33,126 nt of DNA from an uncultured Kiritimatiellota bacterium (lineage in GTDB: Bacteria > Verrucomicrobiota > Kiritimatiellia > RFP12 > DVOR01): NCBI GenBank assembly GCA_944389545.1, contig CALXMT010000026.1, positions 1 to 33,126 on the forward strand. Direction: 5' to 3'. The notes beneath the pieces were generated by a model. It saw only the letters and a program-made list of their open reading frames with translations. It was not told the DNA's origin and made no database searches. This document shows positions 2,004-28,821 of this stretch, piece by piece. The position numbers and the translations under genes were made by a program. Every line of letters starts with the position of its first letter. Position 1 is the first letter of the stretch.

Positions 2004-5000
2004 ATGAGGTACGCAATGAGAACGATTTTGCGGAAGCTTTTTGGGGCGTCCACTGGTGGCGGCGCCTGCCTGTCCTTCTTTGTCTTTGCCCTCACGGGCC
2101 TTATTTCCGGCATTCCCCTCGCCGCCAGAGCCCAAGACAGTGTCACCGTCGGCACCGTCACCTTCCGCGACAAGACCGCGGACTCCATCGTCGCCGATGG
2201 CGTGTTGTCGTTCACTGACCTTACGCAGGCGAATGCTGGTACGGGAGAAAACCAGACGAACAAGTTCCAAACCAAAGGCACTGTTGGTCTGATTGACACT
2301 TTCTTCTCGCCTCGTCAGACCTTGGGGTCTAATCAATCTTGGACGGCCACCTTCACGGCGACGAAGACCATCACCTTCGATTCCGTTCATTTCGGTGGCA
2401 TCCTTTGCTATAACGCGAATTGGGGTGAAATACAGGGCAACGCGAAGCGCACCAACTTTACCGTCACGGCGGGAGGGGTGACCTCTGCGCCCGTCACTAT
2501 AAATTGGACGAGAGGCGACTCTGTAGACGACGCCATGGAGGCCACGGTGTCCATGGGGCAGACTGTCACGCTCGAAGAGGGCGAGACGCTGACCCTCCTC
2601 GCGAACAATGGCAACGATGTGATTGTTAGCTTCGGCTTCTCGCAGATGGAGTTCATCGGTTCGGGGTCTGCTTCCCAGATGGTGGAGTGGGAGGCCGAGC
2701 CGGAGCAGACGGGCAAGAGCCAGGCCGCCTTCACAGGCGGGTTTACCTTTAGGCTTGATGGTCTGCAGCAGGTCGGCGACCAGGTGCCGAATCCTCTGCC
2801 GGCGACGGCCTCTCTCTCCGCCGTCACGGTGGAGTTCTTGGTGAATCTAGACACCGGCGCGATGAATCAAAATGTCCGCCACCTGGCGCTGACGGACGAG
2901 GCCGGCTCCGTGCTCGCCGTCTCCGCCGAGGCCGACCCGACCCCGGTCGGTTCGGACATCCAGCACCAGCAGATCGTCTTCTCCTTCCCCGGCCTCCCGG
3001 AGCTTTCCCTCTCTACCTTATATAAAGGCCACTTCACGGCGACCGCGCCGGAGGTCGGCTCCACCTTCGACGCCTCCTCCGACGTCAGGACGCGCATTTC
3101 CTTCTATCAAGACCAGACCGCCATCGATGCCGGCAATCAGGTCAACGGGTTCCCTGCCTATTGCCTGGCGGCCAGCTTCTCCCTTCAGGCCGAGGTCGAG
3201 GAACCCCTGGGGGCGCTGAACATCAACTTCGACTCGGATTCGAGCCGCTTGGATGCGGAGACGCTTTATGGTCTCGATGGCGTGCAGTATCCCGGCAGCC
3301 AGTGGAACACGTTCTCGAATCTGCCCTCGAATAGTGTCACGACTGTGACGGATGTTTTGGACACCAACGGCACGCCAATGACTGTTTCGTATTACAGCCG
3401 TGGTGCTGAGGATTATGGCGATGCGTACGCGCCGCTGCTGCGGACAATCTTGCTAGATAATATCGGGGATGGCGCATATGTCCAGGTCGAAGACATTCCG
3501 TATGAGTCCTACGACGTCTATGTCTATATGACGCAGAATTCCTTGCCGGATTGGCGTAATGGTTCTATCGTCGTGAATGATACGGCGAATCAGTTCTATT
3601 ATATGCCTGAGGATGCGGATGCCGCAGTTGTCGCTGAGACCGCGACGAGGTGGGGCGGTGATACCACTGCTGAATTGCAACAGGTCACCCTTGGGCAGAC
3701 CGTCATGCGTATTGCCGGCCTCTCTGGGGATCGCGTGAAGTTGCGTGCGATTCGTGGCGCCAATGGTCGCGGCAACATCGCCGCGGTTCAGATTGTGGAG
3801 TTGCGGACGGAGCCGGAGCCGACGCATTGGGAAGGCACCATTAGTGAGAATGTCGCGGCTTCGGCGCTGATTGTCTCCAATGGCACCACGCAGAAGGCGC
3901 TTTCGGCGCTGACCGAGGCGGATACGGTGGAGCTGGCCTTTACGGGGACGGTTTCGCTGAATGTGGACACCGCAGTGACGGTGGACGCGCTGACTCTGGT
4001 CGGCACGGAAGACGCGACGTTGGTGATGAACGCGGACGCGCCCATCACCGCGGCGGAGATCACCATCGAGGGTGGGCTCATCATGACGGCGGAGGATATC
4101 TTCGTCTCCGAGGCGCCCATCGACCTCGCGGAGGGTACGACCTTCGCCATTATGGGCACTCCAGGAACCGCCATCACCTTCAACCAGGCGCTGACCGGTG
4201 CTGGCAGCGTCCAGATTTGGCCGGGCACGGACGTCACCATCGAGGCTGACTTCACCCACACCGGCGGCACCACCGTCAATGGTGTGGTGGGAGGGGAGCA
4301 CCCGGCCACCACCACGCTCCGCTACGCGGGTCACCCTGTCGGGGCCGTCACCGTCGGCCCGGGCGGTGTCTTCGACCTCAACGGCCACGCCTGTGTCCAG
4401 CCCATCACCCTCAACGGTGGCACCCTCCGCGCGGATGAGGCCATCGACGACACCGTCGGTGGTGAATATGTGGCGAGTATTGACTTTAATAACAATGCGA
4501 ACGAGTCTACGCCTATCCCTGCCGACACGATCGCTGGCGTCTTGGGTATGCGCGGCGAGTATTGGACCGCAGGGAATGGAACCTCCGGCAATGGGACGTT
4601 GGCCTTCTACGCCAGCGACACCATTGCCGGCGCCGGCGCGACGCGTGCGGCTGAAAGCACGATTTCTTGGAATTCCGGCGCCGTATGGGGCGCGGGCAGC
4701 AACTGGCAGTATCTTCATGGTTACCTGGATGATCGCCAGACCAATCCTGGCACGGTGACGCTTTCCATCCCGGAGGCTTATGCCGAGGTCGGCTATGACC
4801 TTTATCTCTATTCCAACACGGATAATGGCGGGGCTTTTGCGGCTCGTGAAATCATCGGCGATGATGGCGTGACCACCGCCTATACCTATGTGAATGGGGT
4901 CCTCACCACCGGCAATACGGCGGGGTGGGGCAACGTCACCGCCGGGCGCACCACGGTGGCCGAGGGTACGAACCTCATGATTATCCCCGGTTTGCATCAC

Positions 5001-8000
5001 CGCAATCCGGTCATCAGGCTGTGGGATCGCACCCTCAACAGCGTGCGAACCCGCGGATGTTTGCCCGCACTGCAAATCCGGGCCGGAACGCCGGAGGTCG
5101 GTAACTTCGCCGGGGCGCTGAATGTGACGGGTGCGGGTTCCCAAATTGAGATCGCCGATGGCCTGGACATCTCCTTCGTCGGGGTGATTATCGTCTCGGG
5201 CGAGGGGACGCTGAGCAAGTCTGGCACGGGTACGCTGACCTTTGGCGGCACCGTCACGGGTAACCTCACGGTGGACGCGGGTGCACTTGCGCTCAACGAG
5301 GCCACCATCTCCGGCACCGTCACCGTCAACAACGCGAACGGCCTCACCGTGGGCGCGGGCACCTATGACGGGCTGACCGTCAACCTGGCCGAGAACGCCT
5401 CCGCCCAGGCCACCGCTGAGACCGTGACCCTCGGTGCGCTCGCCGGCGCGGGTTCCTTCGACCTCGATGATGCCACGAGCCTGACCCTGGCCAACGCCAC
5501 CGATGCCTTCACGGGCACGTACGCGAACGCCACCGCCGCCACCCTCGCGGTGAGCGGCGGCACCCTCGCCGTGACCGATGCGCAAATCGCCCAGGTGGGC
5601 GTCCTCCGCGCCGAGGGCGGCACGCTCGCCCTGCCCAACGCTGAGGTCAAGGACCTCGAGGTCGCCGGCGGCGCCGTCACCGGCCCGGGCGGCGATTCCC
5701 TCACGGCCTACACCGAAATCTCCGCCGGCTCCGTGACGCTCACCGCCGCCGGCACCGCCGCTTCCGCCCGTCCCGCGATGGTCGGCGCGGATGACGCTTC
5801 CGTGGAGAACTTCTCCCTCGTTGAGGACGGCACCATCCATTACAACACCCCCGACGACCGCAACCTCTACTTCCCCGAGGGCTTCATCCCCAATCGCGGC
5901 GCGGGTGCCCAGCCCTATGTCATCGTCTTGGGCGAGGACTTCGCCGACTTCGCCACCTTCCCCTTCAGCTTCACGGTCCTCGGCGCAGACCCCGCCGCCT
6001 CCTTCACCCTTCGTCGCCCGGACGGCACCGCCGCCCCCACGGATTCCTTCACCGCCAGCGGCTCCGCCATCACCATCTGGAACGTCGGCGCCATCATCGA
6101 CTACTCCGAGGATCTCCCCCAGGCGCGTTATCACTACGCCTTCGATGGCAACCTGAATTCCACCGTCTCCGAGACCCCCGCGCTGACGAATGAAAACGGG
6201 GCGTTTGTCGCCTCCGAAAACGGTCAGGCGCTTTCCGCCGGTTCGCCTTATGTGACGGGCGGTAACTTCAGCTTCTCCGGCGCGTGGACGTTGGGCCTCT
6301 ATCTCAACGTTGCCGAGGCGGCCCCCCACGTCACTCTGTTCCATGCCGCCGTGCAAGCCGGCTTCACCAGCCCCGGCGCACTCTTCCTGACCACGGGCGA
6401 GACCGCCGATGAAATCGTTCTTTGGCGGCGGAACAACGGCAATAATGGCTATGATGCGCTCGTGACCGCCGACCTCGGCCTGGGCGGCGCCAACGCTTGG
6501 CACCATGTGCTCATCACCCATACCGACACGCGCATCCGCCTTTATGTGGACGGCGAGCAGGTCGGTGAGGTCGATGGGACATTCGAGAACACCTACACCG
6601 GCATCCAAATCGGCAAGGGTCTGGGTGGCTATTCGCTTCCTGACCACACCAATGGCGCCGGTAGCTTCCAGCTCGATGACGTGACCATCTGGCCCGCCGC
6701 CCTGCGCGACGTGCAGATTGAGAAGGCCCTTGCCACGACCACCGCCGCCTGGCGCATCCGCGAGGGCGAGACCCCCGCCGAACTCTTCACGGCGAACGCC
6801 CCCTGGACGCGCACCGACGGCTCCTCCGATGTCTTCGCCGCCGCCGATGAGGATGCCTCCACCCTCACCGCCCGCGCCACCCTCTCCGTCAAGGCCGGGG
6901 CCGATGAACTCTTCACGGCGCTTCAGAGCTTCACCGCTCGCTACGTCCTCCTCGAGGGCGAGCCGCTCACCTATGCGCTCACCACCCTCACGGCGCCGAC
7001 CCTGCCCGCCAACATTCAGACCCTCGTCGTTGGCAATGACTTGACGGTCGACCTCTCCGCCGTGAACCTCGCTCTGGCGGCCGAAATCGCTTCCGAACCC
7101 AACGGACACCTTGTCTTCCCCGGTGTGTGGCGCGGCACGGTCACCCTGACCAATGTCCTCGAAGGCTTCGACTTCACCGTCGAGGCTCGCGAGGACGGTC
7201 TCTACCTCAGTCTTGGTTCCGGCGATTATCCCTGGTCGCTGTCCTTCGACACCTTCTGGGATAACCTCCCTGCCTCCACGCTCTATGGTATGGATGGCTA
7301 TCAAGTTGCCGGTTCCAACTGGAATGTGGTTCGGGACACTTCCTACACCGTCACCAATCCGCGCCGTCAAGACGGCACCACGCAAGCCGGGGTCTCGCTC
7401 TCCGTTGTCAATGCCGGTGGTCAGTGGTATCATTACGGCTATGGGGACTTGATGATGAAGGGCACCACCGATGGCCCTTCGCGCTACGCCTTCACGGGTC
7501 TCCCCGCCGGCCAGTATGAGGTCGTGGTCTACTTCCACACCCGTGACGCCAATAATGTTCCGATCTCTCCCGTCAAGGTCATTGGCGGCGGCTCCGCCCT
7601 GTGGTACACCTATGCCGCCGATGCGTCCGAGTCCACGGCCTCCGACACCGTTCCCACGACGGGGTGGGGCGACATGAGCTATGATGTCGTTACGCATGGC
7701 TACAGTGAGGCCCTCGGCAAGACTATCCTTCGTGCTCCCGCGACCGTCGGTATGGATGGGACGCTCACCATCGAAGTCTCCGATACCGAAGACCCGACCG
7801 CCGGCCCTGGTTTGGACTGGCAGTTGCCGTCCGGCGTCACGGCGCGCGGTTTCATCGCCGGCGTACAGGTCGTGGCCATTGCCCCGATGCCGCTTTACAC
7901 CCGCACCGTGAATGGGACGGAGGCGTGGGAGGCCACGGGCGCGTGGACGGGCGTGCTGGACGACACGACCGTCGATGTGCCGCCGGAAGGGGCGCGCCTG

Positions 8001-11000
8001 ATGGTCGAGACCACGGATGCTTCCATCCTTACCGTTGATGGGGCGCTCCCCGCCTATGACTCTCTCACCGTTGTGGGCGGCGGCACGCTCGCCCTCAGCG
8101 TCAACGGCCAGAACCTTCTCACCGATGACGAATACAAGGCCATCCCGCGCGGGCAGGCCCACACTGTGACCATCCTTGACGCGACCATCGACCCCGCGCA
8201 GGTCACCGCCTGGGTCTCCGCCCTCAAGTATGGCGCCACCGCCACTGTCTCCGTCGCCGAGGGCGGCATCACCGCCGAGGTGACCCTCCCCGAGTCCGCC
8301 TATCCCAGCGACCAGACCGACGACTCCGAGTCCATCTCCTTCAACTTCACGGACTTCTACAACCGCGATGGCACCGATGACGGCGTCGGCGCCATCGCGG
8401 ACGACGCGATGGGCGCCAGCGGCACGCCTTACGAGACCTACGGCGAATATTGGGCGGAGCCGACCACGCGTGAGCCGCCCGCCTCAAACCCGTTCCCCGC
8501 GACGGAGCCGCCGCTGTCCGCGCCCGTGGTGCTGAACACCGCGCGCGGCGCGGCCGGCGCGGACACCTCCAAGAAGGCCTCGGTGACCTACAACGTCTAC
8601 CATGGCTGGGGCAGTGGCATCGGCGGTACGTATCAGCCCATCCTGCAGGCCTTCGCCAACGGCCACTCCCTCTCCGGCGGCGGGGGCGACGGCGGCATCC
8701 CCTCCGTCTCGGTGGACGTGCCCGACGACTGGGGCAACTACACCGCCGTCGTCTACATGAGCACCGACTCCGGCTCGAAGCGTCCGTGGCTGCCCAAGCG
8801 CGTCAACGGCACCTTCTACTATTATACCGATGAGGGCAGGCTGGCGACGCTGGAGGACGCGACCCAGGCCACCACGGTCGGCGGCCTGCCGGATGAGGTC
8901 AAGGACACGACCCACGCCTGGGGCGGGCAGACCGAGGACGGCACGCTGGTCGAGGGCACCAACATGATGGTCATCCCCAGCCTCTCGGGCGACTTCAAGC
9001 TTGAGTTCTGGAGCAAACCCGCCGACAGCGGCAACAATGTGGACGTCACCCAGACCCAGGGCCGCGTGGCGGCGTTCCAGCTGATTGAGAACGCCCCTGA
9101 CAACCTGCCGAACCTCGACGCGGTGCGGGTCTACCAGGCCGAGCTCACGGGCGAGGACAACGCTTGGGCAGACCTTGCCTGGACGGTCAACGGCGCCGCC
9201 GCCGTGGAGGCCCCCGGCGCGGGCGACGCCGTCGAGCTGACGCTGACGAACGACGCGACGCTCACCTTCGACGCTGCCACCACGGTCTCTTCCATCACTG
9301 TTTATGGCCAGGGCCACGCCCTGCGTGTGACCGATGCGGCCAACGCGACCGCCACTTGGCACTTCCTCAACGACACCATCTTGGCCCTGGGCGCCGACAC
9401 CGACATGCTGCCCGCGACCATCGGCACCAACCCCAAGCGTGTCCGCTACGACTACATCTACGCGCAGGACTACACCGTCACCAACGCCTACGAGACCGAG
9501 TTCGCCGCCGGCTTCTCCGGCAACCTGAACCTCAACGGCAACGGCCTCATCGAGTTCTCCCACGGCGATGTCGCCATCGGGACGTTGAACGCGGCGGCGA
9601 ACACGGTCCAAAGCACGGTCCTCTTCTCCGGCGACGTCAGCCTCACCATCAGCGGCACCAACAATGCCAACGGCCTGAAGCTTGGCAACACCGACGTCAT
9701 CTTCCGCGACGACGCCAGGGCCACCCTCTCGCGTATCCACATGCGCGGGCAGAGCGCCACCCATTCCTCCATCACCCTGGAGGACAACGCCGCCATCACC
9801 GTCACGGGCTCCACGAACGGCGTGCACAACACGAACACCCTCCAGTTCGGCGACTGGGGCGGCTCCTCCGCCCTGACCCTGCGCGACAACGCCCGCCTCG
9901 TCGCCGCCGCCGCGGATCTGATGCTCGGCGGCTCCGTGGAGACCGCCGCGGGCACGAACGGCGCCACCGTCACCCTCGAAGACGACGCCGAGATGCGCGT
10001 GGCCGGCGTGGCCAGCTACAACCAGTCCTCCGGCGCGGTCGTGCTCAACGGCGGCACCCTCCTCGTCGGCTCCAACGGCATCCATTCCTTTGTCACCGCC
10101 ACTGTCCCCACCACCACCGCCGTCCTCTCGGTGGCCTTCAATGGCGGCGCGCTGGGCGCGTGGCAGGATTGGACGTGGAATGGCACCACGGCGGGCATCG
10201 TCACCACCGTCACGGGCGACCCGATTCTCGAGACCTCCCGCGGCGTGACCCTGACCGTGGCCGCGGGCTCGAACCTCTTCTCTACGGCCCTTGAGGCCAC
10301 CGTGCGCGGCGAAGGCACTGTCACCTCCGCCCTCACCACCCTCCCGTCCCTCACCCTCGAGGGCGGCACCTTCGAGAACACGGTCGCCGCGCAGGCGCCC
10401 TCCGTCAGCCTCGAGGGTGGTACCCTGGCGCTCTCCGATGTGCTCACGGTGGTGGATGGCTTTGAGTCCCACGGCGCGGGCGCGGTGCGCATCCCCGTCT
10501 CGCCCTCCGGCGCGGACGGTTGGCTGGCGATGGCCGAGGGCGGCCTGGTGCCCAACGTCGCGAACGTTGTCTTCACCCTGGCGCTCGACCTCGCCGGCGC
10601 GGAATCCCTCCTGCCCTACCGCGTGCCCCTCTTCATGGGTGCCTTCCGTAACAATGCGACGGCCGCCTGCGGCTTTGCCTACTCGGGCAACGTGAACAAC
10701 GCCGTCTCCACGGCCACGCCTGTCTACGTCAAGGGCAACCAGGGCCAGGGCCTCTACGCCCAGCTCGCCGGCAACGCCGTCGTCCAGCCCCACACCCAGA
10801 CCCTCAACGACACGCCGTATACACTGGACCAGTCCACGGCCTCCGTCTATGACTACTGGATCTTCAACGCTGAGACTGCCGGCGGCAAGCTGACCATCAC
10901 CGATGGCGGCATCGGCATCAAGGATGTCTCCTTCGAGGGCCTCAGCGCCGTTGTCGTCGCCTCCGGCACCGAGCCTCACACCCTGCTCCAGACGGAGACC

Positions 11001-14000
11001 CTGGGCCTCGGCATTCCTGTGACCTTCGACCTCACCGCGTGGGCCACGGCCCTCAACGATTGGGCCGCCGGCGCCGTGAACGGCGTCCCCGCCAGCCTCT
11101 GCTTGGCCAGCGGTCAGGTCTCCGTCGAGACCACGCCCACCTTCATTGGCTGGGAAGCTCCCGCGGGCGTCATCGTCTCCATCGAGCAGGGTGAGCGTGG
11201 CCTCTACCTCGTGGCGACCTCCAATCGTCTGGCCAGCACCGTCTCGGTGAACTTCTCCGACCGCGCGAACCCGCTGTCGGCCACCCCCGCCGCGCCCGGC
11301 GCCTACGCCGTGCCCGTCGCCGCCTGGAACGACCTGCAGGGCCTCTTCTCCAGCGCGCAGCTCTACGTCTCCGACATCGGCGGCGCGGCCACCGTTCAGG
11401 CCATCCGCGGTGCGGGCGAGGCCGCCCAGCCCACCCAGGTCTCCTCCTCCGCCACTGCCACGGCTTCCGCCACGGCCAATCCCTCGCTCCTCCAGGTGTG
11501 GCTGAGCGACTCCACCGCCACCACCCTGCGCGTCGCCAACGCGCCCTTCGCGCGTTACCGCCTGGCCCTCATCTTCTCTTGTGACATCGAAGACGCCGCC
11601 TTCGCCACTGTCACCGTCGGCACCGACACCTACGCCATGGATGCCGCCGGCTACGTCCGTAAGAACGTCACCGGCCTCGGCAAGGTCGCCGGCGACACCC
11701 AGTGGGGCTCCACCAACCTCGACACGGCGGACTACTTCCGCCAGGGCACCAACGTCCTCCTCACCGACGTCATCACGGACGCCTCTGTCACCGTCTCCCT
11801 CCCCGCCTTCGTCTATGGCCGCACCTACGCCGGCATCGCCGCCGTCCAGATCATCGAGGCCCCCGACACGGCGACCTCCGAGGAAGGCACCGACTACACC
11901 TACACATTCACCGCCGGTGACGAAGACATCAACCTCGCCAACCTCGACCTGACCGTCGATGGCGTGGCCGGCCAGACCTGGCAGAGCGGTGCCAACAACA
12001 CCCTCTCCCTCACCGTGCCCGAGGGCTTGGACGTCACCCTCACCCTCCCGCTCAACTTTCAGGCCGACCTCGTCCGTGCCACCGGCGACGGTAGCCTCAC
12101 CCTCCAGGTCGAGGAGAACGGCGGTGCCGCCCTCGGCACCCTCAACGCCACCGGCCTCGGCAACCTCACCGTCCGCTTCCCCTGTGTCGGCGTCGCCTTC
12201 GAGCCCGCCGATGGCGTCTCCCGCTTCGAGGCCGCCTTCAATAACAATGGCGCGACCTACACCATCGCCGACGGCGCCACCCTCGCCCTCGGCGCGGACA
12301 GCGGCGTCGCCGTCTCCCTCAACGGCACCCTCGACCGCACCGGCGCCACCACCACCCTCGCCGTCAACCTCACCTCTCCGGGCACCCTCCGCCGCGATTA
12401 CCCGATGTCCATCCCCAGCCTGCCCAATGGGACGAATGGTGCGGAGACGGACATGACGATGGCCTTCAAGGCCGGCACCGCCCCCGACAATCCCGTCAAT
12501 CTCCGCGCCAATCTCTTGGTCGAGGATGGCGATGTCCTGCGCGTCCCCAATAGGTATCACTTCTCCGGTGCCTCGCTTGTCTACACCCAGACCGGCGGCT
12601 TGGCTACCTTTGAGAGTGCAGACGCCACGCAAGGCGGCTTCCTCCTCTTGGCCGCCGCCTCCCCCGACAATGCCACAGCGGTGGTCTCTCTTGGCGGGCG
12701 CAACGGCGCACGCTTGGAGACCCCGGTGGTTTGGTCGTGGCGCGGCAACGCCCACGTCGATCTGGATGTCTCCGGCGACGCGACGCTCGCGGTCGGCAAC
12801 ATGGGCTTGCGCGCCAACAACGCCACCGCGCGCCTCGATGCCACCTTCACTGAGGGCGGCACCCTGGAGCTCACCGACACGACCCTCGGCACCGGCGGCA
12901 GCGGCACCGTCGCCACGACCTTCAACGGCGGCCGCATCGCCTCTGTCCAAGGTGAGGCCACCCTCACCCTGCCCGTGACCTTCGCCGGCACCGCGGACGC
13001 GCCCACGACGATCGACCCCGGCAAGTTCGGTACCCTCGTGCTCGACGCCGCCAACACCGCCGCGGAGACCGCCGTCCTCGCCGTGCCGCGCGGCACCCTC
13101 GCCCTCGCCGATGCCTCCGGCCTTGGCGGGGCCACCGTCACCGTCGCCGACGGCGCGGCCTTCGAGGCCCGCGGCTTCACCGGCGAGAACGACGCCTCCG
13201 AGGAGGCCCGCACCGTCCCCGTCGTCGCCATCAAGCTGGACATCCCCGCCGGCGTCGGCAACTCCGACGGCACCGCCATCCAGGAGTTCTGCCTCTATCA
13301 AGGCGACGACAAGGTCGAGTGGCCCAGCGGCACCACCATCTCCGGCACCGGGCGGAACAATACCCCGAATTGGGCCGCAGGCGGCAATGAGGCCATCAAC
13401 GCCCTGATCGACGGCGTCACCGGCGGTGTGGCGTCGCCCGGGACGTGGACGAAGCCGGAGGACGGCTCCACCGGGGCGTATACGGACAACGCCAAAAACA
13501 ACAAGTGGTATCCCATCACCAACACAACGGGGACGGCCTCGGCCACCATCACGATTGGCGGCGATGGCGTCGTCTTCGATTCCTACACCCTCTGGTGTTC
13601 CGACTCGCAGAGCCGCTTCCCCTCCGCCTGGACGCTCAGCGTCCGCTACGCGGGCGACGCCGAGGACAGCTGGACGGAGCTCCACGCGCCGACCGGCCAG
13701 AACCGCCCCGCCGCGAACACCGAGTCTGCGAAGTTCTCCGTCCCTGTTCGGACGGAAGGTGGTGCGACGACGCTCGATGACGTGACCGGCAGGGTCGTCT
13801 TCCAGGCCGGTGCCCAGTGCCGTGCCGTGCGCAAGGCCGGTGCGACGGGCCTCCCCTACGTTGCCCGCATCGCCGGCACCATCGACCTGCCGGATTCGGG
13901 CAAGGATGGTATCCGCTTCTTCCTCGATGGCGAGGAGTTCGCCGTCGCGAACGTCACGGTCAACGAGGGCAACGGCACCGTCACCTTCGGCGCGGGCGGC

Positions 14001-17000
14001 CCGATTACCGTCACCGATGTGATTTGGGATGTTACGAAGCCCACCGGCACGTGGGCCGATGGCTCGACCGGACCGTGGGTGGACGGCGCCACCTTCCGCA
14101 ACGGCGCGGGCGTCTCCTTCCCCGCGCCCACCGGCGACACCAAGATTGCCGTCTCCGTCCTCGGCGCGCCGCGTCCCGATGCCTTCGCCATGGAGGGCGA
14201 CCTGGACTACACCTTCTCCGAGACCGAGGCCGGTGACCGCATCGACCTGAGCGCCGTTGAGGCCACGACCTCCACCACCGTCGACGCGGCCGAGGACGCC
14301 AACGATGTCACCGTGAAGGCCATCGCGCTCGGCGCGGCCACCTACGATGTGCCCATCGACACCGGCGCGGCTGACCGCGGCATCTCCGCCAACGGCTCCA
14401 CCATCCGCCTGGCCGGCGCCCTCTCCGCCGATGGCAAGACCGCCAGCCTCGTCGGCTCCGGCAACCTCAACGCCGTCGGCGCCTCCCCGCACGGCGTCTG
14501 GTTCGACGGCACCGACACCGCCTGCTACCTCACCCTCTCCCCGCGCGCCGGCGAGTGCCAGCAGCTCTCCGCTTATGCCGCACACCTCCGGGGCGAAGGC
14601 CAGGTCGTCATCGCCGGCCAGGTCGCCGATGACGGCTCCGTCAGCGGCGGCACCGTCGAGTTCTCCGGCACCTCCTCCACCGGCGGCAACAACGCCTTCT
14701 CCGGCACCTTCGAAATCCGCGACGGCGCGACCCTCGACTTCACGATGACCCGTGGCGAGGGAGGCGACAATCCTTACTTCCTGGCCGCCGATGGCACGCC
14801 GCTCTATAAGAATGGCCTCGTCGGCTTCACCCTCCGCAACGGCGGTGTCCTCCGCTTCAGCGGGCACCGCGGCTTCATCGGCGGCTGGGGGCAGATCAGC
14901 AACAGCACCCCTGACCTGTGGACGAGCCAGCCCATCGTCATCGGCTACCGCTCCGCCCTGGAGTGCGTCTACGGCTCCGGCACCTATTGGCAGCACACGC
15001 CCTATGGCCTGCGCTTCGACGGCGACGGCGCCACCCTCCTCATCGACGACGGCGACGCGTCCGGTCTCGGTATGGACTTCGTGCGCGGCGCCACCCTCAC
15101 CGTCGCCGGCATCGGCGACGCGGGCGACCCCGACGACCCGAAGACCACCGACGGCGAGCTGACGCAGGGCATCACCGCCACCATCGAAACGGTGGAAGGC
15201 GCCACGATGCGCATCTTCGGCGACGGCGGCCAGGACGATGCACTCTTCCTGGACGTGCATGAGGGCTCCACACTCCGTGTTGCGGCCGACCTCGGCTCCA
15301 CCACACCCGACGGCACCAACCGGACCGACCCCGCGCCTTTCGTCAAGCGTGGCCCCGGCCGCATGACCCTCGAGTGGCCTGAAATCACCAACCTTGTCGA
15401 AGTCGAGGTCGAGGAAGGCACCCTGGGCGGTACCGCCGCGCTCACCGATGTTGCCAGTGTCATCACCATGACCGCGGGCACCACCATCGAGGCCGGCCTC
15501 TCCGTCTCCACCCTCACCGTTGAGCCCGGCGTCACCCTGGCCATCGACCCCACCGGTGCCCGCCAGCTCCGCGCCGACACCGCCCTCTTCTCCAATGGCG
15601 GCGCCTACCTCGTGGACGTCCTCGCCGGCACCGACCTGCCCGATGACGCGACCGGCCGCGAGCCCATCAAGGTCGTCTCCTGGGCCAACGCCCCCGATGC
15701 CGTCAACGCCGCCTTCCAGCCCAGCGCGGCCCTCACCGACGCCGGCTACGGCCTCGAGGTCCGCACCGATGGCCTCTACCTCATGCCGGCCATCACCTAC
15801 TACCGTGAGCTCACCGGCATCGCCGCCTCCACCGGCAGCACCTACCAACTCCGCTGGGACGCCAAGGAGTGGTACACCTCCCTTGACGTCGTGGGCCAGG
15901 CCGACCAGGCTGTCACCTTCAATCCGTCCGAGGGGGTCACCGTCAACGTCGTCCTCCTCCTGCCCGAGGGTGGCGCGGGCGATCAATTGCCGGGCATCTT
16001 GATCAACCTGAGCGGCCCCACCACCTTCTCCTCCCTCCGCGTCGCCCGTCTCGCGGAAGTGGAGGGCGTGCAGACCCTCGAGACCGTGGATTCCGACATT
16101 GCCTACGCCTACGACCTCCGCAATGAGACGCCGCCCGCCGAGGGCGAGGTGAAGGTCTACGAGTGGCTCACCTCCCTGGTCTACCTCACCAACGGCGACC
16201 CCGAGGTCGCCCGACTCCAAGCCACTGTCCCTGAAGACACGGCCTACACCGTCGATGGCACCTCCGTCGTCCTCTACCGTGTCGCCGATGGTCGCGCCGC
16301 CATCAACGTCTCCTTCGCCGCCGGCACCGAGGGCACCCCCTCCTGGCTCCCCGCCGAGACCGCCCCCTGCGGCCCCGTCCCCTACGCCGGCGTCTACTGG
16401 AACAACATCACGGCCACCACCGGCACGCCGCTTACCATCACCGGCGCCAAGCACGAGGTCTACCAGACCCCCATCACCGTCACCGGCCTGGTCGATGACG
16501 CCAACAACCCCGAGACCGCCTCGCTGACCTACGCCTACAGCACTAGCAACGGTTTCGGCTCCGTCAACAACCGCACCCTCAATGGGAACGCCCGCCTCGC
16601 CTCCGCCTTCCTCCGCGGCGCCAATGTCGCCCTCACCCCCGTCGGCGGCCTCGAGGCCCCAGGCCACAACGCCGGCTGGACCGTCCGTGTGTCGGACATC
16701 CCCTTCACGCACTACGACCTCTACCTCCTCTTCGCCGGCTCCGCCGATGGCTCGGTCACCTATCCCGCCGTCCGCGTGAAGGTCGGCACCGAGGCCTGGC
16801 GCACCTACTCCTTCGTCAACGGGTGGACCGCCCCCGCCGGTTCCGCCGTCACCTGGGCCGGCCAGGGCTACTCCGAGCAGGGCTTTGTGGATAGGCTCAA
16901 CCTCCTCCACCTCCGCATCGAGGGCTCCGATGGTGGCTCCATCCAGATCGCTCCCTGCGACAACAGCGATGCCGCCGTCGGCCTCGCCGGCCTCCAGATC

Positions 17001-20000
17001 GTTGAGCTGGACCAGGACGACCCCGTCTACTACCGCCTCATCGGCTCTCGTTGGGGTGACGGTTCCGCCTGGAGCCGCAACGGCGAGGCGAACGGCGCCT
17101 GGTCCGATGCCTCCCTCGAGGCCCCCCACTACGCCCGCTTCAGCAACACCGCCACCGCCCTCGAGGTCGACCGCGAGGTCGCCGTGCCCTTCCTCCGCTT
17201 CGACGGCGTCTCCAACCTCACCGTCACCGGCGAGCCCGGCTTCCTCTCCACCGGCGGCCTCGACTTCACCGATGTCACCTCCGAAGGCACCGTCACCTTC
17301 GAGGAAGACGTCTTCGCCCAGCCGCCGCAGGTCGTCCTCGGCTCCGGCCTCACCCTCGAGGTGCCCGAGCCCGAAGCCGGCATCCTCGACAACGATTGGC
17401 GCTGGCGCTATAGCGATGACGCCGCCCACGGCGCCACCCTCCGCAAGACCAAGGCTGGCGGCCTCCGCCTCACCCAGACCGTCGACAACGATCTCCAGAT
17501 CAATAACGGCACCCTCTGGGTCACGAGCTTCGCGGGTGGATCTCCCTTCACCCTGACTGATCGTGGGAACTACGAAAACGCGGTTCTCGGTCGCACCATC
17601 TCCGGCGAAGGCACCCTCGGTTGGGACGGCACGCACGATTTGGGCATCAACATGAGCAACCTGCCCACCGGTGATGCCGACTCGTCGGACGGCGTGCTCC
17701 TCCACATCCGGAACCGCGCGGTCGTCATCCGCTCCAACTCCGGGGCTATCGCCCCTGAGAAGACTATCCTTGTCGAGGGCGAGAACGCCACGCTCTCCTT
17801 CCTCAAGAGCGGTTCTCGCCTTGTCTTCAACAACGGCACCTTCGTGGCCCGTAATGGCGGCGTTATCCGTGTTCCGGAGCATCGTGCCGACAACGACCTC
17901 TTCGAGAAGAACGTGAATACTGCCGGGACCTCTCTTGAGAGCGGTATGCTCCAGATTGGCGTCTTTTATGCCACCACCAATTCCTCCTCGGACAATTCCC
18001 AGCGGATGATCCGGAGCAGTGGGAATTCCCGTCTCTACTTCTTCCATTCGGGCGGTAACGATGGCGAGCGTGCCAGACAACATGCCTACCAGCAAAAGGC
18101 GGTGAAGGTGTGGGATGGTCGTCTGTTGGTCACGGATGGCATTCTGGCGTTGCACTCCAATCTGGGGCTCACTACCGAGTGCCCGAACTCCCTCACGCTC
18201 TTCCCCAACTCCAACACCTCCGCCATCTATCGCGATGGGGAGTCCACCACGCATGGCTATATCGATGTTGCCAACGGCGCGACGTTCTTCTCTGCCTATC
18301 CTATCTACGCAGGGAGTGGCGGGAACAACAATACGCTCGTCAAGGTTGGCGGCGGCACCTGGGTCCAAGTCAAGAACCTCTGCCAGTCTGTCGGCTACAA
18401 CAGCTCAGCCGGTGGTACCACCGGCGGCACCGGCTTCTACAATACCGTGGAGATTCGTGAGGGCTCCTTCCGCCTGAACGGCGCCATGGCGCTCCAGCCG
18501 CCGGTCATCAACGAGGAGCAGTCCACCGCCAATTTCAATGTCAAGAGCGGTGCCCGCCTCGAAGGTATGGGCGCCTTCGGTTCCGGCTTCAACGTCACCG
18601 TTGAGAGCGGTGCCACCCTCCTCAGCGGTATGCCTTCCGGCACCTCTTGGGTGACTGGCGCCGACCGGTGGTATGGGGAATATCCCAACAACTTCAAGTG
18701 GCCGGTCGTCGCTGCTGTTTCCGCCCGTAACCTCACCTTCAACGGTTCGCTTACCTTTGCGGACGGCGCCATCCTCGAGGTCAATGTCGACACCGACTCT
18801 GATACCGCGCGGCCTCTCGCCACCGGCGAAGATGCCACCGTCCGCTTCGAGGGTACGCTGACCGTGCGCCTGACGAACATGCCCATGAGCATTGCCGAGC
18901 CTGTCCGGCTGACGAACTTCGCCGTCACGCCCTCGGGCCTCACCGCCGATGGCTCCATCATCTGCCCAGAGGCCATCGCCATTGACGCCGAGGTCAAGCT
19001 CTGCACCGAGGCCGATGCCACCGGCGAAGGGGAGGCGGAGGAGCCCGACACCGCCGTCAAGAACCTCTGGCTCATCCCCACCGGCGCCTCCCACCGCTGG
19101 ACCGATGCCACCGGCAGCTGGTCCGAGGAGAAGTGGCACCAGGGCGATGCGACCGTCCGGATTCCCAACGGCAACAACACCGACAGCTCGTCCTCCATGC
19201 CCAATCCCTCTAACCCGAAGGACTCTCCCACCGCCCGTGTGGAGAGCGCCGCCGGCGTGAACCTCACCATCGATGCGCCCCCTGCGCCTACGCAACCCAA
19301 TCCCGACGCTGCAGACGCGCTCAACTTCTGGGGTGTCTACGGCCTCATCCTCACTGGCGGCACCAGTGGTGACATCACCCTTGCCCAGGGCGGCACCATC
19401 GAACCCTCCGGCACCACAGTCACCGGCAACCTCTATGGCATCGACGTCGGCACCTCCTTCTGGAAGCTCGGCGATGGCAATGCCACCATCGATGCCCTCC
19501 TGCGTCTCTACGGCAACGACCCCACCTTCACCGTCTCCGGCGGCAACCTCACCCTCCATCGGCCCATCCTCCTGGCCAGAGACGAGGGTGGCCAGGAAGA
19601 TATGCAACTCCGCAATCCCTTTGAGATTGGCTCCGGCGCCACCCTCACCCTCGACTTCGCCCTCCCCGAGGACGAGACCGAGCGCAACGCCCTCCGCGCC
19701 TACTATCAGGACCGCGGCTTCTCCGCTCCGAGCGAGATGGGCTCTGTCGATCCCGAGCAGGCGCAGTTGCTCCAGGGTCCCCTCACGGGCTCCGGCACCC
19801 TCCGCGTCCAGGGCGAAGGCACCTCTGTCCGCCTCGGCAGCATCAACGAAGGCGGGACCACCGCCGACAGCGGCGTGAACTTCTCGGTCGGCACGGGCAC
19901 GACCCTCACCCTCGCCGGCGCCCTCTCCGGCGGCGGCGCGGCTGAGCGCACCGCCACCGTCGAGGCCGGCGCCATCTTCGACCTGCAGCGCGAGACCGCC

Positions 20001-22661
20001 CTCGGCTCCGCCGATTGGACCTTCAACCTCGCCGCCGGCACCGCCGACGATACCACCGGCACTCCCGCCGGCGCCATCGTCCGCACCGACAACGATGTCC
20101 GCCTCCGCGGCACGGTCAACGTCACCGGCACCGGCTCCGCCACCCTCGGCTCCGGCGGCCTTGCCATTGACGACTCCCTCACCGTGGACGTTCCCGCGGG
20201 CGCCACCCTCACCCTCGCCGCCGCCAACGTCATGACGCCCTCCGGCGCCTCCGACGATGCCGTCTTCACCAAGACCGGCGCCGGCGTCCTGGACGTCACC
20301 TCCGGCAACTTCGAGCTCGGCCTGCCCGTCTCCATCGAGGAAGGCACCCTCCGCCTCTCCGCCAGGCCGAACCCCAGCCCCTCCGGCGACCGCACCATCG
20401 ATTGGAACGTCCGTGAGGGCGGCACCCTGGCCTTCGCCGGCACTGCCGGAGTCTTCAATCTCGAGAGCTACGGCTCCCTCACCGTCGAGGCCGGCGGCAC
20501 CCTCGCCCTCACCGGCGGCAGCGTCACCATCAATGGCATCTCCACGGACCTGCCGCTCTTGGCCGCCGGCTCCATCGTCTCCTTCGGCAACGGTACCTCG
20601 CTGCCCACCGCCTCCAGCTCCGGCGTCCTCTCCTTCGCCAACGGCGGCACCGTCGATGGCACCGTCACCGTCGCGCTCAACATCGATGCCACCAATCCCA
20701 ACAACCTGCCCTCTCAGGCGGTGACGCTGATCTCCTTCGGCGATGGTAACCGCCAGGGCACCGGCGAGTTCATCCTCGGTGGCGACAACGCCGCCGAAGT
20801 CGCCGCCGCGGGTTACACCCTCCACGACAACGGCTCCACCGTCACCCTCGAGCCCTTCGGTGGCGACGCCCTCTACACCTGGGCCGCCAACGGCGCCGAA
20901 GGTTCCGAGTGGGCGACCGGCAACAACTGGGTCGGAAGGAACGGCACCGGCCGCGTCACCTGGCCCGCCGAGTTCGAAACCCCGCCCGCCGTCATCCTCC
21001 CCGAGGTCTCCCCGCTGCGGGACGAACCGACGTTCCACATCCCCGCCGCCTTCCGTACCATCAATTGGACGGGCGAGGCGCAGACCCTCTCCGGCCTCCA
21101 GGCCTCCAACGACGCGGCCAACGCGGATGGCACCGGCGGTGACTACACCCTCACCGGCTCCGCCGCCCTCACCGTCGATGGCACCCTCCTCAAGACCGGC
21201 TCCGGCGGCTTGACCTTCAACCGCCCCGTGACCGTCGGCTCCACCGGCGCCCTCTCCCTCTTCGGCGGCACCGTCACCTTCGCCAATGGCGCCACCCTCG
21301 CCAACACCGCGATCGACCTCAACAACGCCACCCTCGCCTTCACCGGCGATACCGGAACCACCATCAGCGGCCGCCTCGCCGGTAATGGCTCCGGCACCGT
21401 CTTGAAGTCCGGCGCCAACACCCTCACCGTCCGCTCCACCATCGGCGAGGCCATCGACCGCTTCGACATCGACGGCGGCACCCTCCGCCTCACCGCCGAC
21501 TACCAGGCCGGTGCCCTCACGCCGACCTTCGACATGGCCTCCGGCACCACCCTCACCCTCGGCGGCGCCGTCGTCGGCGGCTCGGTCATTGAGCCGACCT
21601 TCGCCGAAGGCAACACGGGCTTCACCCTCCGCTGGGAAGGCGCCGCCGGCACCGCCACCGCCGCCTCGCCCGTCCTCGGCAAGGTCCCCGCCTCCACCTT
21701 CGACTACCAGCCCGCGTCCGGCCACCTCATCCTCGACCCCGAGTCCCTGCCCGAAGGCGCCGCCCTCATCCTCGGCGACGCGGTCAACGAGTCCAGCGCC
21801 CTCCGTCTCGGCGCCGGCGAAGGTGGCGAGGCCATCCGCCTCTCCGCCCTCACCGCCCCGGTGGGCACCGTCATCGGCGTTGAGCCCGCGACCGACCTCG
21901 CCGCCGGCGATTGGGCCACCGAGCGCGCCCTCACCCTCGCCCTGAACACCGAAGACCTCGTCACCGTCGGTGCCACCTTCATGGGCGCGGTCCTTGAGGA
22001 CAACACCACCGTCCGCGCCGGCCTCACCGTCGAAAAGGCCGCCGGCGCCACCGTGGAGCCCACCCTCGCCTACATCGGCGAATCCGACCACAACGCCCTC
22101 GGCACCCTCACCGCCGGCGCCAATGCCCGCGTCGAGGTCACCGGCCTCTGGGCCGGCCCCGCCCGCGCCGCGGTCGGCGGCACCCTTGCCGGCAGCGGCA
22201 CCATCGGCGCCGACGGCACCACCGCCGACAACGTCGAGGTCGTCGCCGGCGGCATCCTCTCCGCCACCGTCACCTCCTCCGCCACCGGCGCCATCGAGCC
22301 CGCCGAGCTGACCGTCCAGGGTGACCTCGCCATCCAGGATGGCGCCATCCTCGCCGTCACCGCCGCCGTCCAGGGCGATGGCACCACCGCCGTCTCCCAC
22401 GTCACCACCGACTCCGTCAACTTCACGGGGTCCCGCGTCAACATCGAGGTTCGCCTCGATGCCCCCGACGAGGCCGCCGTCAACGGCAAGCCCATCCTCA
22501 CCTGGTCCTCCCTCAACGGCACCACGGAGGTCACCGCCGTCGTCAAGGTGCGTAATGAGAACGGCGATTGGGTCGACAGCAAGGACTACTCCGTCATGAA
22601 GGAAGGCTCCCGCCTCGTCCTCCGCCGCGCCTCCGGCCGCTTCTGGATGATCCTTCGTTGA
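2004..22661 (+). CDS. Giant exported beta-helix/autotransporter-repeat protein, possible adhesin
   Basis: One uninterrupted frame of 6,885 residues (numbering from 2004; ATG 2016 is an alternative start). The N-terminus is a Sec signal peptide: basic RTILRKLF, a hydrophobic core, and cleavage after ARA near residue 43. The rest is rich in Thr, Gly, Ala, Asp and Val with GGTLAL/LTV-type strands typical of beta-helices. Strand-repeat motifs of the autotransporter-associated type (KxGxGxLT) occur near 1070, 4446, 5146, 6089, 6395 and 6467. A ~200-residue module ending in AAVQIVE-like strands occurs six times (residues about 406-601, 823-1028, 1744-1959, 2110-2364, 3079-3287, 4766-5003). A LamG-like domain lies near 1376-1577 (WHHVLITHT, LYVDGEQVGE) and an F5/8-type C (discoidin)-like domain near 3743-3915 (ALIDGVTGG, FDSYTLWCSDSQSRFPSAW). 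No C-terminal beta-barrel, LPXTG or PEP-CTERM signal is visible; the protein ends RRASGRFWMILR. Surface adhesion or glycan binding is inferred from domain types. The gene appears monocistronic. Confidence 0.9.
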   Translation: MRYAMRTILRKLFGASTGGGACLSFFVFALTGLISGIPLAARAQDSVTVGTVTFRDKTADSIVADGVLSFTDLTQANAGTGENQTNKFQTKGTVGLIDTFFSPRQTLGSNQSWTATFTATKTITFDSVHFGGILCYNANWGEIQGNAKRTNFTVTAGGVTSAPVTINWTRGDSVDDAMEATVSMGQTVTLEEGETLTLLANNGNDVIVSFGFSQMEFIGSGSASQMVEWEAEPEQTGKSQAAFTGGFTFRLDGLQQVGDQVPNPLPATASLSAVTVEFLVNLDTGAMNQNVRHLALTDEAGSVLAVSAEADPTPVGSDIQHQQIVFSFPGLPELSLSTLYKGHFTATAPEVGSTFDASSDVRTRISFYQDQTAIDAGNQVNGFPAYCLAASFSLQAEVEEPLGALNINFDSDSSRLDAETLYGLDGVQYPGSQWNTFSNLPSNSVTTVTDVLDTNGTPMTVSYYSRGAEDYGDAYAPLLRTILLDNIGDGAYVQVEDIPYESYDVYVYMTQNSLPDWRNGSIVVNDTANQFYYMPEDADAAVVAETATRWGGDTTAELQQVTLGQTVMRIAGLSGDRVKLRAIRGANGRGNIAAVQIVELRTEPEPTHWEGTISENVAASALIVSNGTTQKALSALTEADTVELAFTGTVSLNVDTAVTVDALTLVGTEDATLVMNADAPITAAEITIEGGLIMTAEDIFVSEAPIDLAEGTTFAIMGTPGTAITFNQALTGAGSVQIWPGTDVTIEADFTHTGGTTVNGVVGGEHPATTTLRYAGHPVGAVTVGPGGVFDLNGHACVQPITLNGGTLRADEAIDDTVGGEYVASIDFNNNANESTPIPADTIAGVLGMRGEYWTAGNGTSGNGTLAFYASDTIAGAGATRAAESTISWNSGAVWGAGSNWQYLHGYLDDRQTNPGTVTLSIPEAYAEVGYDLYLYSNTDNGGAFAAREIIGDDGVTTAYTYVNGVLTTGNTAGWGNVTAGRTTVAEGTNLMIIPGLHHRNPVIRLWDRTLNSVRTRGCLPALQIRAGTPEVGNFAGALNVTGAGSQIEIADGLDISFVGVIIVSGEGTLSKSGTGTLTFGGTVTGNLTVDAGALALNEATISGTVTVNNANGLTVGAGTYDGLTVNLAENASAQATAETVTLGALAGAGSFDLDDATSLTLANATDAFTGTYANATAATLAVSGGTLAVTDAQIAQVGVLRAEGGTLALPNAEVKDLEVAGGAVTGPGGDSLTAYTEISAGSVTLTAAGTAASARPAMVGADDASVENFSLVEDGTIHYNTPDDRNLYFPEGFIPNRGAGAQPYVIVLGEDFADFATFPFSFTVLGADPAASFTLRRPDGTAAPTDSFTASGSAITIWNVGAIIDYSEDLPQARYHYAFDGNLNSTVSETPALTNENGAFVASENGQALSAGSPYVTGGNFSFSGAWTLGLYLNVAEAAPHVTLFHAAVQAGFTSPGALFLTTGETADEIVLWRRNNGNNGYDALVTADLGLGGANAWHHVLITHTDTRIRLYVDGEQVGEVDGTFENTYTGIQIGKGLGGYSLPDHTNGAGSFQLDDVTIWPAALRDVQIEKALATTTAAWRIREGETPAELFTANAPWTRTDGSSDVFAAADEDASTLTARATLSVKAGADELFTALQSFTARYVLLEGEPLTYALTTLTAPTLPANIQTLVVGNDLTVDLSAVNLALAAEIASEPNGHLVFPGVWRGTVTLTNVLEGFDFTVEAREDGLYLSLGSGDYPWSLSFDTFWDNLPASTLYGMDGYQVAGSNWNVVRDTSYTVTNPRRQDGTTQAGVSLSVVNAGGQWYHYGYGDLMMKGTTDGPSRYAFTGLPAGQYEVVVYFHTRDANNVPISPVKVIGGGSALWYTYAADASESTASDTVPTTGWGDMSYDVVTHGYSEALGKTILRAPATVGMDGTLTIEVSDTEDPTAGPGLDWQLPSGVTARGFIAGVQVVAIAPMPLYTRTVNGTEAWEATGAWTGVLDDTTVDVPPEGARLMVETTDASILTVDGALPAYDSLTVVGGGTLALSVNGQNLLTDDEYKAIPRGQAHTVTILDATIDPAQVTAWVSALKYGATATVSVAEGGITAEVTLPESAYPSDQTDDSESISFNFTDFYNRDGTDDGVGAIADDAMGASGTPYETYGEYWAEPTTREPPASNPFPATEPPLSAPVVLNTARGAAGADTSKKASVTYNVYHGWGSGIGGTYQPILQAFANGHSLSGGGGDGGIPSVSVDVPDDWGNYTAVVYMSTDSGSKRPWLPKRVNGTFYYYTDEGRLATLEDATQATTVGGLPDEVKDTTHAWGGQTEDGTLVEGTNMMVIPSLSGDFKLEFWSKPADSGNNVDVTQTQGRVAAFQLIENAPDNLPNLDAVRVYQAELTGEDNAWADLAWTVNGAAAVEAPGAGDAVELTLTNDATLTFDAATTVSSITVYGQGHALRVTDAANATATWHFLNDTILALGADTDMLPATIGTNPKRVRYDYIYAQDYTVTNAYETEFAAGFSGNLNLNGNGLIEFSHGDVAIGTLNAAANTVQSTVLFSGDVSLTISGTNNANGLKLGNTDVIFRDDARATLSRIHMRGQSATHSSITLEDNAAITVTGSTNGVHNTNTLQFGDWGGSSALTLRDNARLVAAAADLMLGGSVETAAGTNGATVTLEDDAEMRVAGVASYNQSSGAVVLNGGTLLVGSNGIHSFVTATVPTTTAVLSVAFNGGALGAWQDWTWNGTTAGIVTTVTGDPILETSRGVTLTVAAGSNLFSTALEATVRGEGTVTSALTTLPSLTLEGGTFENTVAAQAPSVSLEGGTLALSDVLTVVDGFESHGAGAVRIPVSPSGADGWLAMAEGGLVPNVANVVFTLALDLAGAESLLPYRVPLFMGAFRNNATAACGFAYSGNVNNAVSTATPVYVKGNQGQGLYAQLAGNAVVQPHTQTLNDTPYTLDQSTASVYDYWIFNAETAGGKLTITDGGIGIKDVSFEGLSAVVVASGTEPHTLLQTETLGLGIPVTFDLTAWATALNDWAAGAVNGVPASLCLASGQVSVETTPTFIGWEAPAGVIVSIEQGERGLYLVATSNRLASTVSVNFSDRANPLSATPAAPGAYAVPVAAWNDLQGLFSSAQLYVSDIGGAATVQAIRGAGEAAQPTQVSSSATATASATANPSLLQVWLSDSTATTLRVANAPFARYRLALIFSCDIEDAAFATVTVGTDTYAMDAAGYVRKNVTGLGKVAGDTQWGSTNLDTADYFRQGTNVLLTDVITDASVTVSLPAFVYGRTYAGIAAVQIIEAPDTATSEEGTDYTYTFTAGDEDINLANLDLTVDGVAGQTWQSGANNTLSLTVPEGLDVTLTLPLNFQADLVRATGDGSLTLQVEENGGAALGTLNATGLGNLTVRFPCVGVAFEPADGVSRFEAAFNNNGATYTIADGATLALGADSGVAVSLNGTLDRTGATTTLAVNLTSPGTLRRDYPMSIPSLPNGTNGAETDMTMAFKAGTAPDNPVNLRANLLVEDGDVLRVPNRYHFSGASLVYTQTGGLATFESADATQGGFLLLAAASPDNATAVVSLGGRNGARLETPVVWSWRGNAHVDLDVSGDATLAVGNMGLRANNATARLDATFTEGGTLELTDTTLGTGGSGTVATTFNGGRIASVQGEATLTLPVTFAGTADAPTTIDPGKFGTLVLDAANTAAETAVLAVPRGTLALADASGLGGATVTVADGAAFEARGFTGENDASEEARTVPVVAIKLDIPAGVGNSDGTAIQEFCLYQGDDKVEWPSGTTISGTGRNNTPNWAAGGNEAINALIDGVTGGVASPGTWTKPEDGSTGAYTDNAKNNKWYPITNTTGTASATITIGGDGVVFDSYTLWCSDSQSRFPSAWTLSVRYAGDAEDSWTELHAPTGQNRPAANTESAKFSVPVRTEGGATTLDDVTGRVVFQAGAQCRAVRKAGATGLPYVARIAGTIDLPDSGKDGIRFFLDGEEFAVANVTVNEGNGTVTFGAGGPITVTDVIWDVTKPTGTWADGSTGPWVDGATFRNGAGVSFPAPTGDTKIAVSVLGAPRPDAFAMEGDLDYTFSETEAGDRIDLSAVEATTSTTVDAAEDANDVTVKAIALGAATYDVPIDTGAADRGISANGSTIRLAGALSADGKTASLVGSGNLNAVGASPHGVWFDGTDTACYLTLSPRAGECQQLSAYAAHLRGEGQVVIAGQVADDGSVSGGTVEFSGTSSTGGNNAFSGTFEIRDGATLDFTMTRGEGGDNPYFLAADGTPLYKNGLVGFTLRNGGVLRFSGHRGFIGGWGQISNSTPDLWTSQPIVIGYRSALECVYGSGTYWQHTPYGLRFDGDGATLLIDDGDASGLGMDFVRGATLTVAGIGDAGDPDDPKTTDGELTQGITATIETVEGATMRIFGDGGQDDALFLDVHEGSTLRVAADLGSTTPDGTNRTDPAPFVKRGPGRMTLEWPEITNLVEVEVEEGTLGGTAALTDVASVITMTAGTTIEAGLSVSTLTVEPGVTLAIDPTGARQLRADTALFSNGGAYLVDVLAGTDLPDDATGREPIKVVSWANAPDAVNAAFQPSAALTDAGYGLEVRTDGLYLMPAITYYRELTGIAASTGSTYQLRWDAKEWYTSLDVVGQADQAVTFNPSEGVTVNVVLLLPEGGAGDQLPGILINLSGPTTFSSLRVARLAEVEGVQTLETVDSDIAYAYDLRNETPPAEGEVKVYEWLTSLVYLTNGDPEVARLQATVPEDTAYTVDGTSVVLYRVADGRAAINVSFAAGTEGTPSWLPAETAPCGPVPYAGVYWNNITATTGTPLTITGAKHEVYQTPITVTGLVDDANNPETASLTYAYSTSNGFGSVNNRTLNGNARLASAFLRGANVALTPVGGLEAPGHNAGWTVRVSDIPFTHYDLYLLFAGSADGSVTYPAVRVKVGTEAWRTYSFVNGWTAPAGSAVTWAGQGYSEQGFVDRLNLLHLRIEGSDGGSIQIAPCDNSDAAVGLAGLQIVELDQDDPVYYRLIGSRWGDGSAWSRNGEANGAWSDASLEAPHYARFSNTATALEVDREVAVPFLRFDGVSNLTVTGEPGFLSTGGLDFTDVTSEGTVTFEEDVFAQPPQVVLGSGLTLEVPEPEAGILDNDWRWRYSDDAAHGATLRKTKAGGLRLTQTVDNDLQINNGTLWVTSFAGGSPFTLTDRGNYENAVLGRTISGEGTLGWDGTHDLGINMSNLPTGDADSSDGVLLHIRNRAVVIRSNSGAIAPEKTILVEGENATLSFLKSGSRLVFNNGTFVARNGGVIRVPEHRADNDLFEKNVNTAGTSLESGMLQIGVFYATTNSSSDNSQRMIRSSGNSRLYFFHSGGNDGERARQHAYQQKAVKVWDGRLLVTDGILALHSNLGLTTECPNSLTLFPNSNTSAIYRDGESTTHGYIDVANGATFFSAYPIYAGSGGNNNTLVKVGGGTWVQVKNLCQSVGYNSSAGGTTGGTGFYNTVEIREGSFRLNGAMALQPPVINEEQSTANFNVKSGARLEGMGAFGSGFNVTVESGATLLSGMPSGTSWVTGADRWYGEYPNNFKWPVVAAVSARNLTFNGSLTFADGAILEVNVDTDSDTARPLATGEDATVRFEGTLTVRLTNMPMSIAEPVRLTNFAVTPSGLTADGSIICPEAIAIDAEVKLCTEADATGEGEAEEPDTAVKNLWLIPTGASHRWTDATGSWSEEKWHQGDATVRIPNGNNTDSSSSMPNPSNPKDSPTARVESAAGVNLTIDAPPAPTQPNPDAADALNFWGVYGLILTGGTSGDITLAQGGTIEPSGTTVTGNLYGIDVGTSFWKLGDGNATIDALLRLYGNDPTFTVSGGNLTLHRPILLARDEGGQEDMQLRNPFEIGSGATLTLDFALPEDETERNALRAYYQDRGFSAPSEMGSVDPEQAQLLQGPLTGSGTLRVQGEGTSVRLGSINEGGTTADSGVNFSVGTGTTLTLAGALSGGGAAERTATVEAGAIFDLQRETALGSADWTFNLAAGTADDTTGTPAGAIVRTDNDVRLRGTVNVTGTGSATLGSGGLAIDDSLTVDVPAGATLTLAAANVMTPSGASDDAVFTKTGAGVLDVTSGNFELGLPVSIEEGTLRLSARPNPSPSGDRTIDWNVREGGTLAFAGTAGVFNLESYGSLTVEAGGTLALTGGSVTINGISTDLPLLAAGSIVSFGNGTSLPTASSSGVLSFANGGTVDGTVTVALNIDATNPNNLPSQAVTLISFGDGNRQGTGEFILGGDNAAEVAAAGYTLHDNGSTVTLEPFGGDALYTWAANGAEGSEWATGNNWVGRNGTGRVTWPAEFETPPAVILPEVSPLRDEPTFHIPAAFRTINWTGEAQTLSGLQASNDAANADGTGGDYTLTGSAALTVDGTLLKTGSGGLTFNRPVTVGSTGALSLFGGTVTFANGATLANTAIDLNNATLAFTGDTGTTISGRLAGNGSGTVLKSGANTLTVRSTIGEAIDRFDIDGGTLRLTADYQAGALTPTFDMASGTTLTLGGAVVGGSVIEPTFAEGNTGFTLRWEGAAGTATAASPVLGKVPASTFDYQPASGHLILDPESLPEGAALILGDAVNESSALRLGAGEGGEAIRLSALTAPVGTVIGVEPATDLAAGDWATERALTLALNTEDLVTVGATFMGAVLEDNTTVRAGLTVEKAAGATVEPTLAYIGESDHNALGTLTAGANARVEVTGLWAGPARAAVGGTLAGSGTIGADGTTADNVEVVAGGILSATVTSSATGAIEPAELTVQGDLAIQDGAILAVTAAVQGDGTTAVSHVTTDSVNFTGSRVNIEVRLDAPDEAAVNGKPILTWSSLNGTTEVTAVVKVRNENGDWVDSKDYSVMKEGSRLVLRRASGRFWMILR

Positions 22662-28761: not shown

Positions 28762-28782
28762 AATTCCCTCGTTACGCGCCCC

Positions 28783-28811
28783 ACAATAGCGCACACCGCG
28801 TTGCTTGTCAA
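28783..28811 (-). promoter_or_regulatory. Sigma-70 promoter of the ZIP transporter gene
   Basis: On the minus strand TTGACA (28811-28806), a 17-bp spacer and TATTGT (28788-28783) form a near-consensus promoter. It lies 21 nt before the ATG, with GAGGGA as ribosome binding site. It is the only promoter here with a perfect -35 box. Confidence 0.7.
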
Positions 28812-28821
28812 GGGGGGCGGC

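Follow-up and report, generated by a model that had tools for sequence, protein, structure and literature searches.

What are the six diverged segments that recur along one giant protein of an uncultured Kiritimatiellota bacterium, and what might they do there? The stretch of DNA that was analysed (the window, 33,126 nucleotides) carries a single frame of 6885 residues, for which a preliminary description had proposed six old or fast-evolving copies of an unnamed module, set between LamG- and discoidin-like domains and resembling a carbohydrate-binding sandwich. The question has three parts: whether the segments are truly related, which fold and family they belong to, and what function could have kept them in place. 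The features on which the argument relies are as follows.

2004-22661, plus strand: frame of the giant protein, 6885 aa, carrying all six modules
2004-2135, plus strand: signal-peptide-like N terminus (MRYAMRTILRKLFG...AARAQ), read by eye
3213-3809, plus strand: module copy m1 (profile boundaries, leave-one-out; AlphaFold2 model)
4470-5093, plus strand: module copy m2 (profile boundaries, leave-one-out)
6243-6719, plus strand: LamG (Laminin_G_3) domain between m2 and m3, Pfam match
7230-7886, plus strand: module copy m3 (profile boundaries, leave-one-out)
8331-9098, plus strand: module copy m4 (profile boundaries, leave-one-out)
11238-11867, plus strand: module copy m5 (profile boundaries, leave-one-out)
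16299-17015, plus strand: module copy m6 (profile boundaries, leave-one-out; AlphaFold2 model)
22632-22658, plus strand: C-terminal tail SGRFWMILR, resembling the tails of other module-bearing proteins in the order

The giant protein and its ends

The giant protein is probably secreted, its N terminus being signal-peptide-like as judged by eye. The LamG domain (residues 1414-1572, E 1.3e-11) is the sole Pfam domain in it. Of the two kinds of neighbour first described, the LamG stands; no match to a discoidin domain was obtained at E<=1. NCBIfam returned nothing of note on the protein, the PATR repeat (PF12951) was not matched at E<=1, and no autotransporter barrel was found. An exosortase (PF09721) is encoded in 14 of the 17 genomes of the same genus (g1; e.g. 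G000:C2:146286-147038), and the window's giant protein has no match to the PEP-CTERM tail (PF07589).

A short hydrophobic strand followed by arginine is a frequent ending of module-bearing proteins in this order. The window's protein ends in ...SGRFWMILR, and others end in ...GLMILVR, ...GFMIMIR or ...LSILIR (L046, L072, L074, L076, L077, L078, L084). Among the fetched loci, 11 of 42 module-bearing frames, some of them orthologues, have such an ending, compared with none of the 448 other frames of >=300 aa. The tail matches neither Pfam nor NCBIfam and might serve to sort or anchor the protein. Elsewhere in the window, at 27946-30954, long open frames overlap on both strands (1002 aa on the plus strand, 643 aa on the minus strand); the 1002-aa frame has no Pfam match.

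Six copies of one module

Each of the six copies is ~200-250 residues long. In a leave-one-out search, the profile of five copies was used to search for the sixth, with 20 block-shuffled versions and one reversed version of the giant protein as controls. Every copy was recovered by the other five, with E values of 4.4e-16 (m1), 3.1e-12 (m2), 4.1e-6 (m3), 1.2e-7 (m4), 2.2e-7 (m5) and 3.1e-7 (m6), while the top score in the controls was <=6.5 bits. By these profiles, the six segments are true homologues, paralogues of one domain family. A profile search of the whole frame revealed no seventh copy.

The preliminary description thus holds on position, the profile boundaries falling within a few residues of those first drawn. 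Its low pairwise identity is confirmed as well (21-28% to copy 1), and so is its shared order of motifs: across 123 modules from about 30 genomes, W (100%), G (99%) and Q (98%) are nearly invariant. The six-row alignment offers no stretch conserved enough for a contig scan, for which m5 orthologues were used in its place.

The predicted fold

The AlphaFold2 model of m1, for which 55 sequences of the window and the fetched loci were used, is all beta, with a mean pLDDT of 95.7 and a pTM of 0.93; that of m6 reaches 91.1 and 0.90. The two copies are 21% identical, and both are modelled as the same beta-sandwich with the same top structural matches. The closest solved structure is that of residues 717-886 of Bacteroides uniformis beta-glucuronidase 2 (Z 12.2 for m1, 10.4 for m6), followed by YxiM (2o14; Z 11.2 and 10.4) and by the malectin-like domains of FERONIA and ANXUR, the ectodomains of plant receptor kinases (Z about 10 for m1 and about 9 for m6, with 9.4 for m6 against FERONIA). 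For m1, human malectin scores Z 9.9 (9ikp, over 145 residues at 3.1 Å). CBM35-type modules rank below the malectin-like domains, at Z 7-8.

A malectin-like (galactose-binding-like) beta-sandwich, a known fold, is thus well supported by the models as the predicted structure of the modules. The carbohydrate-binding type of sandwich suggested at the outset is upheld at the level of predicted fold, and modelling two of the six copies gave one fold. The invariant W34, P99, W150 and Q196 (m1 model numbering) seem to belong to the scaffold more than to a binding site.

Distribution and domain company

Three further copies occur in the window's genome outside the giant protein: a 1489-aa frame on contig 17 has two, and a 1288-aa frame on contig 9 has the third, next to a LamG domain. 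The module is present in 24 of 59 related genomes, including 15 of the 17 of the same genus, and in 73 of 388 genomes sampled across the Verrucomicrobiota phylum (34 of 199 genera). Where its contigs carry names, the genus consists of uncultured Kiritimatiellae/Lentisphaeraceae assemblies, of which two came from the colon of water buffalo and the rectum of yak. An iterative profile gave 131 matches in the fetched loci, corresponding to 123 distinct near-full-length modules. A tblastn search with one consensus-like copy as query found no relatives in plasmids and phages.

The carriers range from giant frames of up to 9797 aa, found elsewhere in the phylum as had been anticipated, to short secreted proteins in which 1-5 copies stand in tandem. 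Two fusions to hydrolases were seen. In the GH27 alpha-galactosidase of L114 (frame 2337-4823), Melibiase_2 (201-378) and Melibiase_C (390-464) are followed by the module at 559-761, and in L111 a GH16 domain (278-397) precedes a module at 460-653. Other companions in secreted proteins are LamG, Ig, fn3, TSP3 and PATR domains, several of these proteins having PEP-CTERM tails.

Two recurrent architectures were observed. Within the same genus, short secreted proteins (L059, L061-L065) carry their modules in tandem towards the N-terminal end and share a C-terminal ending of another, Ig-like kind (...VTFTVPD...LGVKVSRPE). In another family (genus code g75; L095-L099, L104), a conserved PEP-CTERM protein of 842-879 aa with one module occurs singly in complete genomes of ~3 Mb.

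Age of the copies and divergence of the gene

A tree built from the 123 modules scatters the window's six copies and joins modules that occupy the same slot of the giant protein rather than those of one genome. Support for the slot clades is 100 for slots 5 and 6 and 99 for slots 1, 3 and 4 (for slot 4, for most members); that for slot 2 is weaker (83-94). With the copies of each slot in a separate clade that spans species, the tree places the duplications before the genus, and each slot has been kept since. The choice between old and fast-evolving copies is therefore settled in favour of old, and a recent tandem expansion is ruled out by the clustering of modules by slot.

Relative to the giant genes of L045 (G003) and L047 (G005), some parts of the window's gene have diverged far more than others. 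For G003, silent divergence from the window is only about 0.1 over residues 1600-2000 and 2800-3000, whereas it amounts to 1-1.5 close to the N terminus and to about 1 over residues 5200-5400. In the comparison with G005, some stretches of ~100 codons have around ten amino-acid changes but hardly any silent ones. Mosaic recombination or diversifying selection may lie behind this pattern. Between slots of distant species, dN/dS is near 1 with silent sites partly saturated; given that saturation and the mosaic-looking gene, the ratio was not accepted as proof of positive selection.

Probable glycan binding and the alternatives

Why would a single protein keep six such modules in place? The giant protein is read as a glycan-binding fibre because the module keeps company typical of carbohydrate-binding modules. 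We consider it probable that the copies are ancient paralogues of an unnamed family with a malectin-like fold, acting as non-catalytic glycan-binding modules on a secreted fibre. The fibre would be very long and repeat-rich, with the six modules and the LamG domain spaced along it and presumably displayed at the cell surface. Modules at fixed positions would bind glycans, as the fold and the GH27 and GH16 fusions suggest, and six of them together could attach the fibre multivalently to glycans of plant or host origin in the gut. Carbohydrate-binding modules usually stand C-terminal to a hydrolase domain, and the fusions to GH27 and GH16, in which the module stands at that end, lend indirect support to glycan binding. 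The wide occurrence in the genus and the separate clade of each slot also point this way, while the scaffold-like look of the invariant residues, the small number of hydrolase fusions (two) and the similarity to malectin, near noise in profile comparison (2-8% probability), count against it.

A bolder extension, which can be put forward only tentatively, is that the family binds glycans throughout the phylum and that every slot has retained a distinct ligand specificity from a time before the genus diversified; the giant protein would then be a multi-ligand glycan reader of gut Kiritimatiellae.

The main alternative is that the modules have the same fold and bind no glycan, being structural spacers or domains for docking between proteins, set at intervals in a long beta-solenoid that they cap or stiffen. 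Sandwich folds can be mere spacers, and malectin-like domains can also bind peptides, as the plant protein FERONIA does with RALF. The interspersed arrangement of the modules, each slot kept in place across species, would suit such a role, as would the nature of the most conserved residues, which belong to strands and turns. Against it stand the use of the module at the C-terminal end of GH27 and GH16 enzymes and its presence in short secreted proteins, where 1-5 copies follow one another. We regard this alternative as rather unlikely.

The module could conceivably also belong to the malectin family (CBM57, PF11721) as a divergent member, binding the same kind of gluco-oligosaccharides. The structural matches (Z about 10 with human malectin and 12 with the C-terminal domain of the beta-glucuronidase) speak for this, and the weak profile-profile alignment falls in a sensible register, the YDVIVY strand of the module being paired with the Y-x-V-x-L-x-F strand of malectin. 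This register is only a weak sign of common descent. With hhalign, the module reaches a probability of 2.4% against 26 malectins of the phylum, or 7.9% with more distant module relatives as query, barely above the best of ten column shuffles (1.3%), whereas a within-family positive control gave 99.3%; against YXIM domains the probability is 1.4% or less. PF11721 matches none of the six window copies or ten relatives at E<=10, nor anything in the window's genome. For the same sixteen sequences, no profile match was obtained with AGA-YXIM_GBD (PF21254), and none at E<=10 with the CBM6, CBM35 and CBM36 models. Membership by sequence in malectin, YXIM or CBM6/35 is ruled out on these profiles; at most, the module would work like malectin or CBM domains, and true membership in the malectin family appears improbable.

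Wider searches agree with the initial impression that no named family fits. There was no convincing Pfam match for the six copies or ten relatives (E<=10), no NCBIfam family, no PHROGs match (best E 0.095) and no chain among PDB sequences, and searches of the literature gave nothing on point for this domain or for giant proteins of this kind in the phylum. The module represents an uncatalogued domain family within a known fold class, its function being probably an ordinary one.

The notion that the copies resemble each other by chance, through a similar beta-rich, Gly/Ala/Thr-rich composition, is vanishingly improbable: low identity and the lack of significance of m5 against other copies in single blastp comparisons would fit it, but the leave-one-out recovery against shuffled and reversed controls rules it out, and the predicted folds of m1 and m6 agree.

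Significance

About one in five sampled Verrucomicrobiota genomes has this module, which has no name in Pfam, NCBIfam or PHROGs. Because it is unnamed, a testable annotation is missing for many secreted proteins, among them the products of some of the longest genes in these gut bacteria. Should the module bind glycans, it would represent a new family of binding modules and help to explain the giant surface proteins of a poorly cultured group, and the conserved order of slots allows one to ask whether different slots recognise different sugars. The value lies in annotation, since the module is frequent in a phylum with poorly described secreted proteins, rather than in a surprising new mechanism.

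Comparison with known systems

Malectin (CBM57, PF11721) and the plant malectin-like domains resemble the module in predicted fold, and like it are secreted and appended to other domains. The module differs in being longer than the 163 positions of the PF11721 model, in its own set of W, G and Q motifs and in the lack of a sequence-profile match. CBM35, CBM6 and CBM36 belong to the same broad class of beta-sandwich, where Z 7-8 may mean only a common arrangement; they are about 70 residues shorter and have no sequence match. The N-terminal galactose-binding domain of YxiM and agarases (PF21254) is alike in fold (Z 11.2 over 135 residues), with no profile match. The best structural match remains the domain of B. 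uniformis beta-glucuronidase 2 (6d8g, 717-886), which superposes over 147 residues at 3.0 Å. Although it is only 10% identical to the module and gives no match among PDB sequences, it lies C-terminal to a glycoside hydrolase, just as the module does in some of its relatives.
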